Assembly: GCF_014697025.1 (NCBI RefSeq)
Contig: NZ_JACJRC010000009.1
Span: 1-64,000, forward strand
DNA from: Alkalinema sp. FACHB-956
GTDB lineage: Bacteria > Cyanobacteriota > Cyanobacteriia > Leptolyngbyales > Leptolyngbyaceae
DNA: 64,000 nucleotides
Reading direction: 5' to 3'
In this document: piece by piece, positions 21,247-24,951 of the stretch
How positions within the stretch are numbered: position 1 is the stretch's first letter
Layout of the letters: each line of letters opens with the position of its first letter
The notes under the pieces: generated by a model
The model's database searches: none
What the model saw: only the letters and a program-made list of their open reading frames with translations
Told to the model about the DNA's origin: nothing
Translations under genes and position numbers: made by a program

Positions 21247-21699
21247 TCACGATCGAGTGATTTGGATCACCTCTGGTTCAAACTGGTGCTGCCCATTCAG
21301 CTTCCAGCACTGGAGATCGGTCACATTGCCTTGACTGACGGAGGCAATCACGTAGGAATAGTCTGCCCAAGCTAATCGCCGATCGCACTCCGATGGAATG
21401 GCAGGATGATCAGGATGGGAATGGTAAACACCAACAATCTCTAACTGTCGCGATCGGGCTTTCTTCATCGCTTGAAACATGACTGCGGAATCGATCCAAT
21501 AGCGATCGGTCTTTCCAGTTCCTGCGCCAATTAATTCTGCTACTGCTGCGTTCCAGCCATTTTCCGTCGGGTAAAGCTCAACCACGATCGTACAATCTTG
21601 CTGTCTTTTTCCTAGCAATAACCCACAACCTTCCTGGGGATAGGCTTGTTCTAACCAATCTGTGAGTTGATAGATGTAGTTTTGGGAGATTTGTAGCAT
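21247..21699 (-). CDS. JAMM/MPN (M67-type) metallopeptidase
   Basis: A 150-residue single-domain protease of the JAB1/MPN family, zinc enzymes that cut isopeptide or peptide bonds next to ubiquitin-like modifiers. The JAMM signature is complete: GVYHSHPDHPAIPSECD gives the two His, Ser and Asp ligands, and an upstream Glu is in PQEGCGLLLG. The start is set at the ATG at 21699 with GAGAG upstream. A longer frame to 21879 would overlap the nuclease gene and adds low-complexity residues from a repeated KQNYF-type motif. No ubiquitin-like or E1-like gene is visible nearby. Its neighbour upstream is the PD-(D/E)XK gene, 94 bp away. Confidence 0.8.
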   Translation of the reverse strand: MLQISQNYIYQLTDWLEQAYPQEGCGLLLGKRQQDCTIVVELYPTENGWNAAVAELIGAGTGKTDRYWIDSAVMFQAMKKARSRQLEIVGVYHSHPDHPAIPSECDRRLAWADYSYVIASVSQGNVTDLQCWKLNGQHQFEPEVIQITRS

Positions 21700-21793
21700 A
21701 GCGTTCTCTCGTGCTGAAGACTGCAAGATTGCCATTACCGACGATCGTCTATTCGCTTGTTCGTTTGAAGCATTCTGTTTAAAGTAATTCTGT

Positions 21794-22312
21794 TTAAAGT
21801 AATTCTGTTTGATTAATTTCGATCGATTCCAGTTCGATCGGGCGCGATCGCCAAGGTTTTTTTCCCGCCACCAACACATCCCACCAATGGAAATGCATGG
21901 CTAACAAGTGATCCAATTCCCGCGTATCCTTACTGGAACTCAAGTTTTGCGCATCTGGTAAACAATAGGCTGCAATTTCCGACGCCTGCAACATGTGCAA
22001 GACACCCACCGAAAAACCACTGCCCGCATAGACAATACAGCCCCCCATGGGCAATGCTTTCATATTGGCTAAGGCGTAGGGAATTTTTTCGTCGGCGGTA
22101 CCGGGACTGTCCTGAAACTTACATTCGATCGCAAAGGCCGTTTGCGAAGCTTCCCGAATCAGCAACATATCAAGTCGGCGATTCTTCCCAATGATCGATT
22201 TACCAATATTGACTTCTCGATAAACCGTAATCCCCCGATCGCTAAAATTCCGATACACATAATCTGCAATTAAATTGGCATATTCATGGCCAGTCATCGG
22301 TTTCTTAATCAC
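21794..22312 (-). CDS. PD-(D/E)XK-type endonuclease
   Basis: The product (172 residues from a GTG at 22312) has a restriction-endonuclease-like core: RRLDMLLI supplies the first Asp, and AFAIECKFQ supplies the E-x-K pair about 15 residues later. PYALANMKALPMGGCIVYAG follows. Such folds occur in restriction enzymes and other DNA nucleases. The GTG is favoured because AGGAGG lies 12 bases upstream; an ATG at 22297 or 22369 is also possible. It lies just downstream of the DNA methyltransferase gene on the same strand, which suggests a type II restriction-modification pair. Target sequence unknown. Confidence 0.7.
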   Translation of the reverse strand: MIKKPMTGHEYANLIADYVYRNFSDRGITVYREVNIGKSIIGKNRRLDMLLIREASQTAFAIECKFQDSPGTADEKIPYALANMKALPMGGCIVYAGSGFSVGVLHMLQASEIAAYCLPDAQNLSSSKDTRELDHLLAMHFHWWDVLVAGKKPWRSRPIELESIEINQTELL

Positions 22313-22381
22313 AATCTCTGAACGCCTCCTGTCTGAATACCTGCTTGCAGTCTCCTGGCCGCTGGGCATGAATACTAGGTG

Positions 22382-23110
22382 CTAATCTAGACTTGAATCT
22401 GCACTGAAATCCACACTGCAATTCACGGGATATAAAAACTCAGTGATCCGCTGCTGTGTGATATGAATTGCTTCCTCACAAATATCATTGCCCCAGAAAT
22501 TGCAAGCCTGCCTCAGCGCCGCTAAACCCACACTGCCAGCCCCCATAAACGGATCAATCACCAACTCCCCCGGTACCGTACTTTGGCGCACCAGTACTTC
22601 TGAGACCTCGATCGGTTTTTCCGTGGGATAGCCGCGAAAAATTCGGGGGTGTTCGATAATATCGGCGATCGACAAGTCGTTCAGTTTGCGTTTGCCCTTT
22701 TCAAAAAACAAAATGAACTCATAGCGCGATCGATAGTGATATCCCATGCCAATTTTTTGTTTATCCCAGACGATCGGCTTCCAGAATTTAAATCCCACCT
22801 GCTCTGCCATGGGCTTAATCACGAACATCGTTTCCGCATCGCAAAATAGATACAAATGGCGATGGTTCTTCAACACACGATAGATTTCTGGGAGCAATTC
22901 TGTAAAGCGATGGTTGGGAAAGATTTGAAACCAGTTATTACTCGATGCTTTGCTATGTTTGAGTCGTGTGGTTGTCCCTACACTGCGATGTTTTTCCAAG
23001 GACTCATAGGGCGGATCGGTAATGACCAAATCCACAGAACTATCCGGCAACGATCGCAGCCATGCCACCGCATCCGCTTGATGTAACGTAAAGGTGACCG
23101 GAGCGCCCAT
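22382..23110 (-). CDS. DNA methyltransferase (DPPY, beta class)
   Basis: An S-adenosylmethionine-dependent DNA amino-methyltransferase of about 242 residues. The catalytic motif IV is DPPY (ITDPPYES, about residue 32), followed by a target-recognition stretch and then motif I near the C-terminus as VIDPFMGAGSVGLAA. This order marks the beta class, which methylates adenine N6 or cytosine N4. The ATG at 23110 is chosen; a GTG at 23131 is an alternative and neither has a good ribosome-binding site. The nuclease gene follows within 70 bp. Cyanobacteria also carry solitary methyltransferases tied to their CGATCG/GATC-rich genomes, so a non-restriction role cannot be ruled out. Confidence 0.85.
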   Translation of the reverse strand: MGAPVTFTLHQADAVAWLRSLPDSSVDLVITDPPYESLEKHRSVGTTTRLKHSKASSNNWFQIFPNHRFTELLPEIYRVLKNHRHLYLFCDAETMFVIKPMAEQVGFKFWKPIVWDKQKIGMGYHYRSRYEFILFFEKGKRKLNDLSIADIIEHPRIFRGYPTEKPIEVSEVLVRQSTVPGELVIDPFMGAGSVGLAALRQACNFWGNDICEEAIHITQQRITEFLYPVNCSVDFSADSSLD

Positions 23111-23166
23111 AGCAGAAGAAGAATAGAACACCTGTATTTTACAGCCTGCCGAATTTCACAGCCTGT

Positions 23167-24951
23167 TTAACGGGGAATCATTTCTAAACTTTCTTCTTCG
23201 ATCGCCAGTTGTTCGGCTTCCCTGAGTTCTGATTCCGGTAAACCATCGGCACGATCGAGACTGAGCGTTGGACTCTGGTTGGGTAGATTGAGACGGTGCC
23301 GGACTTGGAGGGGTTGCAACTCGGCACGTTGTAACTCTGCACTGGGCAATGCGATCGTTCCCTCAGTTCCCTCTGGGGCTGCTGCGCTATCTACTGCACT
23401 GCCCACTGCGCTATCTACTGTGCCATCGCTTGCACGCTCTATTATTCTGGCTACAGGATTGACCTCAGCAGCTGCGGTAGCCAGGGGTTGCAGGGGTTGC
23501 GCCAGTTGTTTGGCGGATTGCGGGTCGGCCATCAGTTTATCGATCGCTTGTTTGACAAAGCCTTGGATAAACGCCGATCGTTGATTTTGCTGGAAAACTT
23601 GCTTGAGGATATCTTGCAGGCGATCCTTGCGAATCGTCGTCGTCTCACCTTCCCCCTCAAAATAATTGACCAACGCCAGTCCCGCAATGCGCGTTAAATA
23701 AGCCGCACTGACGCCCTGTAACGCCCCCCCCGCCACATAGGTAATCGCATTGGTTTTCAGCACCACCCCGATCGCCTGGGTGGAAACTTCCACAATCCCC
23801 AGCTTCACCATCAATTCCGCCAGGGTTTTCGCGATCGTTTTGCCCTGCTCTAGGGAGAATTTTTTCTGGTAGAGATGGCTCAGTTCTACAACCATTTGGC
23901 CGCTAATGGCGGCTGTTGCCAGCAGATCCAGAGCCGGAAAGGGATTGGCAAAGGCCGTTCCCGCAATCACCCACTGTGCTCGCTCAATAATCGGCATGGC
24001 CCGATCGCGCCGCACTTGATTGAGCTTAATTTTGGCATCCACCTTCAGGGCTTCCACATTGCCCAGGGAACTGGCCAGGATTAACTTCTGGCCCTCCGTT
24101 GCCAAAATCGTTTCCAACCGTGTTGTTAGATCCGTAATTTGCGGTTCCGGCTCCTCCAGCCATTCTTGAATGGAGCCATCGGCTTGGTGTTGGCGCACCT
24201 TCATCGGTCGAGGTTGCCCCGCCACACTGACCACATCCTCCGGCGCAACCATCCCCCGCAACCGATCGCGAATTTTGCTCAGAATTTCCGCCTGCTCCTT
24301 GGGTAAATACTGGTCTTGTTTGTTAAACACCACCACGGTGCGGCGATGGGCTTCGGTGAGCTTTTTAATCGCTTGGATCTGACTCTCGGTGAGGTCACCC
24401 TCCGTTACAAACAGCACCAGATCGCCCGCCTTGGCCAACTGCCAAGCTTCCGCTTCCATGGACAATCCAGCCTCCGCTGCGGCAAACAGCTCTGGGCTAT
24501 CCTGGAGGTGAATTTTGTGGGAAATGTCCGTCGCCCATTGGGTTTGCAACAATTGCGTCAACGTGGTTTTGCCAACCCGCTTGCCCCCCATGGCCACCAA
24601 GCGAATGTCTTCCCGTTTCAGTTCCGCCAAAATTTCATGGAGCTGCGTACGAAACTCCGACACCTGTTGGGCACTGCCCTCGATCGCCAGCTCTTTCACC
24701 TCGGCGGCCAATTGGTTCACCACGGCCTCCGCCTCCACCAACGCCGTTTTGACCCGCTCTACTGTGACGGGGCGTCGATAGACCAATTGACGTTGGGGTT
24801 TGGCAAAACTCAGATACGCCCAAGCAGCACCACTTCCGAGCACGATCGCAGGAACCCATTCCCCCAACCAATCGGTGATGCCATCTAAAATCCAAATGGA
24901 AGCCGCTAGACCCAACCCGCCTAGCACCCACGAGCGTAACGATAATGCCAT
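23167..24951 (-). CDS. membrane-associated GTPase (YcjF/DUF697-like)
   Basis: A 594-residue protein with two N-terminal hydrophobic segments (about 7-48). A GTPase domain has the P-loop AMGGKRVGKTTL near 122 and an NKxD-type motif in FNKQDQYLP near 208. A hydrophobic C-terminal domain resembles DUF697 (GIVEVSTQAIGVVLKTNAIT; GGALQGVSAAYLTRIAGLAL). The tail beyond about 500 is low complexity (VDSAVGSAVDSAAAPEG). Proteins of this kind occur throughout cyanobacteria with no firm role. It lies 67 bp after cdaA on the same strand and may be cotranscribed with it. Confidence 0.75.
   Translation of the reverse strand: MALSLRSWVLGGLGLAASIWILDGITDWLGEWVPAIVLGSGAAWAYLSFAKPQRQLVYRRPVTVERVKTALVEAEAVVNQLAAEVKELAIEGSAQQVSEFRTQLHEILAELKREDIRLVAMGGKRVGKTTLTQLLQTQWATDISHKIHLQDSPELFAAAEAGLSMEAEAWQLAKAGDLVLFVTEGDLTESQIQAIKKLTEAHRRTVVVFNKQDQYLPKEQAEILSKIRDRLRGMVAPEDVVSVAGQPRPMKVRQHQADGSIQEWLEEPEPQITDLTTRLETILATEGQKLILASSLGNVEALKVDAKIKLNQVRRDRAMPIIERAQWVIAGTAFANPFPALDLLATAAISGQMVVELSHLYQKKFSLEQGKTIAKTLAELMVKLGIVEVSTQAIGVVLKTNAITYVAGGALQGVSAAYLTRIAGLALVNYFEGEGETTTIRKDRLQDILKQVFQQNQRSAFIQGFVKQAIDKLMADPQSAKQLAQPLQPLATAAAEVNPVARIIERASDGTVDSAVGSAVDSAAAPEGTEGTIALPSAELQRAELQPLQVRHRLNLPNQSPTLSLDRADGLPESELREAEQLAIEEESLEMIPR

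Follow-up and report, generated by a model that had tools for sequence, protein, structure and literature searches.

A Putative Type II Restriction-Modification Gene Pair and an Apparently Displaced JAMM Peptidase Gene as Neighbors in Alkalinema sp. FACHB-956

Organization of the Locus

The window, by which we mean the whole 64,000-nucleotide stretch of DNA analyzed here, belongs to a genome of 6.16 Mb in 59 contigs, and the genes described below are located on its contig C9. As had originally been predicted, the open reading frames and their Pfam matches were shown to place a DNA methyltransferase, a nuclease, and a JAMM metallopeptidase in this order on the minus strand (Table 1), and since each of the three has many homologs, they are not chance frames. 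The methyltransferase comprises 249 aa when read from a GTG start, an in-frame ATG at 23110 being the end assigned to it in the original prediction, and its DPPY motif is followed by DPFMGAGS. Only 12 bases separate its gene from that of the nuclease. The longest JAMM frame (210 aa) overlaps the nuclease gene; similarity to the relatives begins near either of the two in-frame ATG codons listed, and the gap between the nuclease and JAMM genes is thus likely to be 58 or 94 bases. At 21772-21816, a 15-base unit is present twice exactly and once imperfectly, and these copies extend over the 3' end of the nuclease gene and the spacer preceding the JAMM gene.

Table 1. Features of the locus in the window
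Feature	Position	Strand	Basis
DNA methyltransferase, N6_N4_Mtase family	22382..23131	-	Pfam N6_N4_Mtase 5.9e-32, DPPY
PD-(D/E)XK nuclease, probable restriction endonuclease partner	21794..22369	-	191 aa, Pfam PDDEXK_11 2e-42
JAMM/JAB metallopeptidase	21247 to 21735 or 21699	-	Pfam Prok-JAB 2e-25
slr1306-family protein (DUF697)	23167..24951	-	family match; adjoins pair
Small ORF, 90 aa	20873..21145	-	open frame

No terminator-like site was called between the methyltransferase-nuclease pair and the JAMM gene, and this, together with the shared strand and the short spacing, makes read-through transcription from the pair into the JAMM gene possible. Promoter and terminator scans yielded no more sites than in shuffled sequence. 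The GC3 values were 0.51-0.52 for the pair, 0.48 for the JAMM gene, and 0.57-0.60 for the three larger flanking genes, and the pair was not clearly marked as foreign by this measure of base composition. For the small helical ORF, neither a homolog in the 75 other genomes searched nor a family match over the cut-off in Pfam, NCBIfam, PADLOC, or PHROGs was found, and it is either a lineage-specific gene or no gene at all. Likewise, PADLOC, NCBIfam, and PHROGs assigned no named system to the three genes.

Conserved Linkage of the Methyltransferase and Nuclease Genes

Among 42 genomes of the window's family, in which the window's genus is represented by the window's genome alone, the methyltransferase and the nuclease were both found in the same seven genomes, and in all six relatives the nuclease gene lies directly 3' of the methyltransferase gene on the same strand. 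Three of these relatives, all of one genus (G295, G296, and G297), share with the window the order slr1306-family gene, methyltransferase, nuclease. The slr1306-family gene was thus located beside the pair in four of the seven genomes including that of the window; it was not found in the pair stretches of G304 and G320, and the contig of G300 ends at that point. Its product is not thought to be part of the pair and would be functionally separate from it.

A wider scan of one genome per species gave 164 confirmed candidate methyltransferase loci, the best 80 of which were compared as stretches of 3.1-10.7 kb (18 of them shorter than 7 kb). Judged by their titles, these derive mostly from Myxococcota/Deltaproteobacteria and Gammaproteobacteria, with some from Cyanobacteria, Acidobacteria, and others. 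In 36 of these 80 loci, the methyltransferase gene was followed by the nuclease gene in the same orientation, order and strand being constant wherever both genes were present; the nuclease gene was absent from the remaining 44. The distance between the match ends ranged from -6 to 311 bases over 43 loci, namely the 36 two-gene loci, the six family loci, and L090, some of which are the same contig counted twice (L130/L090, L118/L229, and L132/L091 are apparently such double entries). Meanwhile, a search of 292 genomes of the phylum detected a methyltransferase 67-70% identical to that of the window in two others, G013 and G041, the next best match being 41% identical. Over the family and phylum searches together, the close relatives of the methyltransferase had identities of 67-80%. 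The nuclease had a strong match solely in G013, and 14 further matches were weak; in G041, the methyltransferase gene adjoins a DUF3644 gene, not the nuclease gene.

The linkage of the two genes is therefore conserved, both across the 36 loci and within the window's family, and this supports the original view that they resemble a Type II restriction-modification pair. The methyltransferase and the nuclease are a probable Type II restriction-modification unit. The 44 loci lacking the nuclease gene indicate that the methyltransferase can also be solitary or have other partners.

Features of the Nuclease

An alignment of 35 nucleases revealed that D67, E82, K84, and Q86 are invariant and that the PD-(D/E)XK residues are intact in the window's protein. 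Its structure was modeled with confidence (mean pLDDT 90.6, pTM 0.80), and the model matched solved structures weakly, with a best E of 4.9e-4, four matches with E of 0.001 or less, and TM-scores of at most 0.42 among the 50 structure matches listed. These weak matches, which we take to be largely PD-(D/E)XK nucleases, include repair nucleases. No solved chain matched the nuclease by sequence at a significant level, and the sequence and fold searches of solved structures found no characterized relative; nor did the phage and plasmid collections contain a match, and our literature search found nothing linking PDDEXK_11 with a restriction endonuclease. The pairing and the catalytic residues are observed features, and restriction activity and specificity are predicted for the pair.

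A nuclease 49% identical to that of the window was observed on a viral contig (L189:2434-2889), which also carries a terminase-like gene, as judged by eye, and in which tblastn detected no methyltransferase.

It is conceivable that the methyltransferase is in effect solitary and that the PDDEXK_11 nuclease has a different task, for example in repair or as a function of a mobile element. The loci devoid of the nuclease gene, the viral nuclease without a methyltransferase, and the repair nucleases among the structure matches would all fit such a division, but the presence of both genes in the same seven family genomes and their constant arrangement in the 36 loci speak against it, and we regard it as unlikely.

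Other Neighbors of the Methyltransferase Relatives

Matches to the methyltransferase in phages were below 60% identity, and at least seven plasmid records matched at 60-80% identity. In five plasmid matches inspected, four of them from the latter set, neither an annotated nuclease partner nor a JAMM gene was found beside the methyltransferase gene in a gene table that is incomplete. By our reading of the neighbors, 12 of the 80 loci have next to the methyltransferase gene a module of a DUF6575 protein and a small partner of ~130 aa (128 aa in one case), which is on the opposite strand in four of these 12. The domains of this module were checked in two loci, L125:5001-7390 and L157, in both of which the methyltransferase relative stands beside a DUF6575 gene and a small protein. 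In addition, the relative in L132 adjoins a DUF3644 protein, and that in L129 a DUF6996/DUF6997/DUF7226 protein. PMC9519451 lists DUF6575 with the anti-phage candidates of E. coli, and no literature joining DUF3644 with a methyltransferase was found in our search. The DUF6575 module and the DUF3644 and DUF6996/6997/7226 proteins may be candidate alternative restriction partners, and these further uncharacterized neighbors are to be taken as a lead, not as a result.

Identity of the JAMM Protein and Its Linkage to moeB

A JAMM match was obtained in 136 genomes, and the neighbors were examined in 115 of them including that of the window; the 21 left out of this count comprise 19 weak matches in one family (f19), G064, and the fragmentary G327. 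Clustering of the neighbors revealed one recurrent partner 3' of the JAMM gene, which encodes a 390-aa E1-like (moeB-like) protein whose C-terminal part is presumably rhodanese-like. Measured between match ends, moeB was located on the same strand no more than 400 bp 3' of the JAMM gene in 81 of the 114 other genomes, and no more than 2.3 kb 3' of it in 90. It was not found in the JAMM stretch of the other 24, where the sequence covers 8 bases 3' of the JAMM gene in G313 and ~1.5-2.6 kb in the other 23, so that a more distant moeB would escape. The link between the JAMM gene and moeB is accordingly strong, though not universal.

In the window's genome, moeB is located on contig C4, apart from the JAMM gene on C9. 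This moeB is 73% identical to that of G060, and no JAMM match was found within 11 kb around it; the window's JAMM protein, used as a query, matched only itself in its own genome. E36, H106, H108, S116, and D119, i.e., the E, H-x-H, S, and D residues of the zinc site, were present in the window's protein and in all 115 aligned sequences (the alignment has 115 rows, L020 from G099 being dropped for a stop in the match and G109 giving two rows). The best NCBIfam match was to desampylase, at 67.8 bits far below the cut-off of 130. By its matches in the other genomes and within its own, the window's JAMM protein is an ortholog of the cyanobacterial JAB whose gene usually precedes moeB, and its gene is displaced here.

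No E1- or ubiquitin-like gene was found in the gene group of the three genes, the ThiF and ThiS matches of this genome lying elsewhere, and no E2-like match was obtained among the seven window proteins scanned. The original prediction that such genes are lacking was thus correct for the neighborhood; it does not extend to the JAMM protein as such, since in most relatives its gene adjoins an E1-like gene, of which the window's genome has its own copy on another contig. The ThiS-family genes of the window's genome comprise two on contig C2, flanking what we take to be a threonine synthase gene, and one at C9:166874. By analogy with Mec+ (see below), the most likely substrate of the JAMM protein would be a small sulfur carrier.

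The window's JAMM protein departs from the others at G37, S84, and F88 (alignment numbering), positions conserved in 90-98% of the alignment, and its terminal branch is 0.57 versus a median of 0.17, as might be expected if the gene were a decaying remnant left after parting from moeB. Its frame is nevertheless open with every active-site residue kept, and its divergence is about what that of the moeB of the same genome predicts (residual rank 48 of 82, z 0.22), which renders such decay quite improbable.

Distribution of the JAMM Gene Relative to the Pair

The JAMM gene was found in 103 of the 292 genomes of the phylum and in 37 of the 42 of the family, and 7 of these 42 carry the pair. Four of the seven pair-bearing family genomes have a JAMM gene, and that of the window is the one case in which it adjoins the pair. 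G300, G304, and G320 carry the two on different contigs, and the JAMM gene was absent from the pair loci examined from these genomes. No JAMM match was obtained in the other three, G295, G296, and G297, and since these all belong to one genus, their lack of it may be a single loss. Furthermore, neither tblastn nor a profile of 115 JAMM sequences detected a JAMM gene in the stretches of the 80 methyltransferase loci, and conversely, the pair was present in none of the JAMM loci examined from the 114 other genomes. When 18 JAMM loci of other genomes (11-18 kb) were compared with the 57 window frames of at least 80 aa, the JAMM protein was the sole match, bar one weak unrelated match in L233. Adjacency of the JAMM gene and the pair is hence a single case among the 115 genomes examined.

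These observations bear directly on the original prediction that the peptidase is an added part of a defense locus, in which it would act on the restriction enzyme, or else on a tagged protein, by processing or regulating it. Such a three-part locus is suggested by the common strand, the short spacing, and the lack of a called terminator-like site, by the JAMM domains known in tag-based conflict systems, and by weak PADLOC matches to JAB and E1-E2 components. Nonetheless, the adjacency was restricted to one of the seven pair-bearing and one of the 37 JAMM-bearing family genomes (G327 left out), it was not seen at the 80 methyltransferase loci or at the JAMM loci of the 114 other genomes, three pair-bearing genomes have no JAMM match, and the usual neighbor of the JAMM gene is moeB. 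In other genomes, the order of the three genes is maintained for the methyltransferase and the nuclease in the 36 loci and the six relatives, and not for the JAMM gene beside them. The original prediction had itself named a JAMM gene found mostly elsewhere in relatives as the observation that would speak against it, and this is what we found. A three-part defense locus is consequently very improbable, and the three genes, which had been put forward as the best candidate for an undescribed arrangement in the window, do not form one unit. It is likewise very improbable that, in the window's lineage alone, the restriction-modification operon captured the JAMM gene after its separation from moeB and is now tuned by it, for instance because the peptidase trims the nuclease or the methyltransferase of a tag derived from a sulfur carrier.

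We therefore favor, with a probability of about 0.88, the explanation that the locus comprises two unrelated neighbors, a Type II-like restriction-modification unit and a displaced JAMM gene, with no functional link between them. Of the two enzymes of the unit, the PD-(D/E)XK nuclease would cleave incoming DNA that lacks the modification by which the methyltransferase would protect the sites of the host. The JAMM protein, its gene parted from moeB, would act on a sulfur carrier of the ThiS/MoaD/CysO type, e.g., by releasing an adduct from the carrier C-terminus, as Mec+ does for CysO-cysteine, and the JAMM gene and the pair would have become neighbors by a rearrangement in the window's lineage. 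The JAMM gene beside restriction genes would then be a displaced gene of another module rather than a new ubiquitin-like defense, which removes a false lead, and the uncharacterized methyltransferase-PDDEXK_11 pair itself extends across several phyla.

Comparison with Known Systems

The pair is similar to Type II restriction-modification systems in domain content, kept gene order, and patchy spread across phyla, and differs from them in that its nuclease matches solved nucleases weakly. A literature search on JAMM, cyanobacteria, and restriction-modification returned nothing judged related.

Bil and similar systems are defense systems of the E1/E2/Ubl/JAB type. Two other JAB-containing groups were observed in the window's genome, both on contig C15. 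One, of operon-like layout (L096:8111-10728), encodes what looks to be a protein of tandem ubiquitin-like repeats and an E2-like part, along with a JAB-E1 fusion of 498 aa and a small cysteine-bearing protein. The other (L097:7211-9448) is a second E1-like and JAB pair, whose gene group presumably resembles the PRTRC plasmid clusters. The former is similar to the polyUbl type of PMC1779556 (row 6e), its parts beyond JAB and ThiF being judged by eye. The window's JAMM protein shares the JAB peptidase fold with the E1/E2/Ubl/JAB operons (rows 6a-6e in the same source), but its gene has no adjoining E1, E2, or ubiquitin-like gene and is of the moeB-neighbor kind.

Another counterpart is the JAB and E1-rhodanese pair that Iyer and colleagues (PMC1779556, 2006; Table 1, row 4b) recorded for cyanobacteria. 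The window's JAMM protein is an ortholog of the JAB of this operon with the same active-site residues, and the window differs from the operon so described in having the E1-like gene on another contig.

Mec+ is itself a JAMM protein, known from Mycobacterium. There, according to PMC3227635, the rhodanese-bearing E1-like enzyme MoeZR charges the sulfur carrier CysO, and Mec+ sets cysteine free from this carrier. The likeness to this CysO-CysM-Mec+ pathway lies in the combination of a peptidase with a small sulfur carrier and an E1-like enzyme that bears a rhodanese domain, and by this analogy, we infer that the window's JAMM protein may act on a cysteine adduct in the manner of Mec+.
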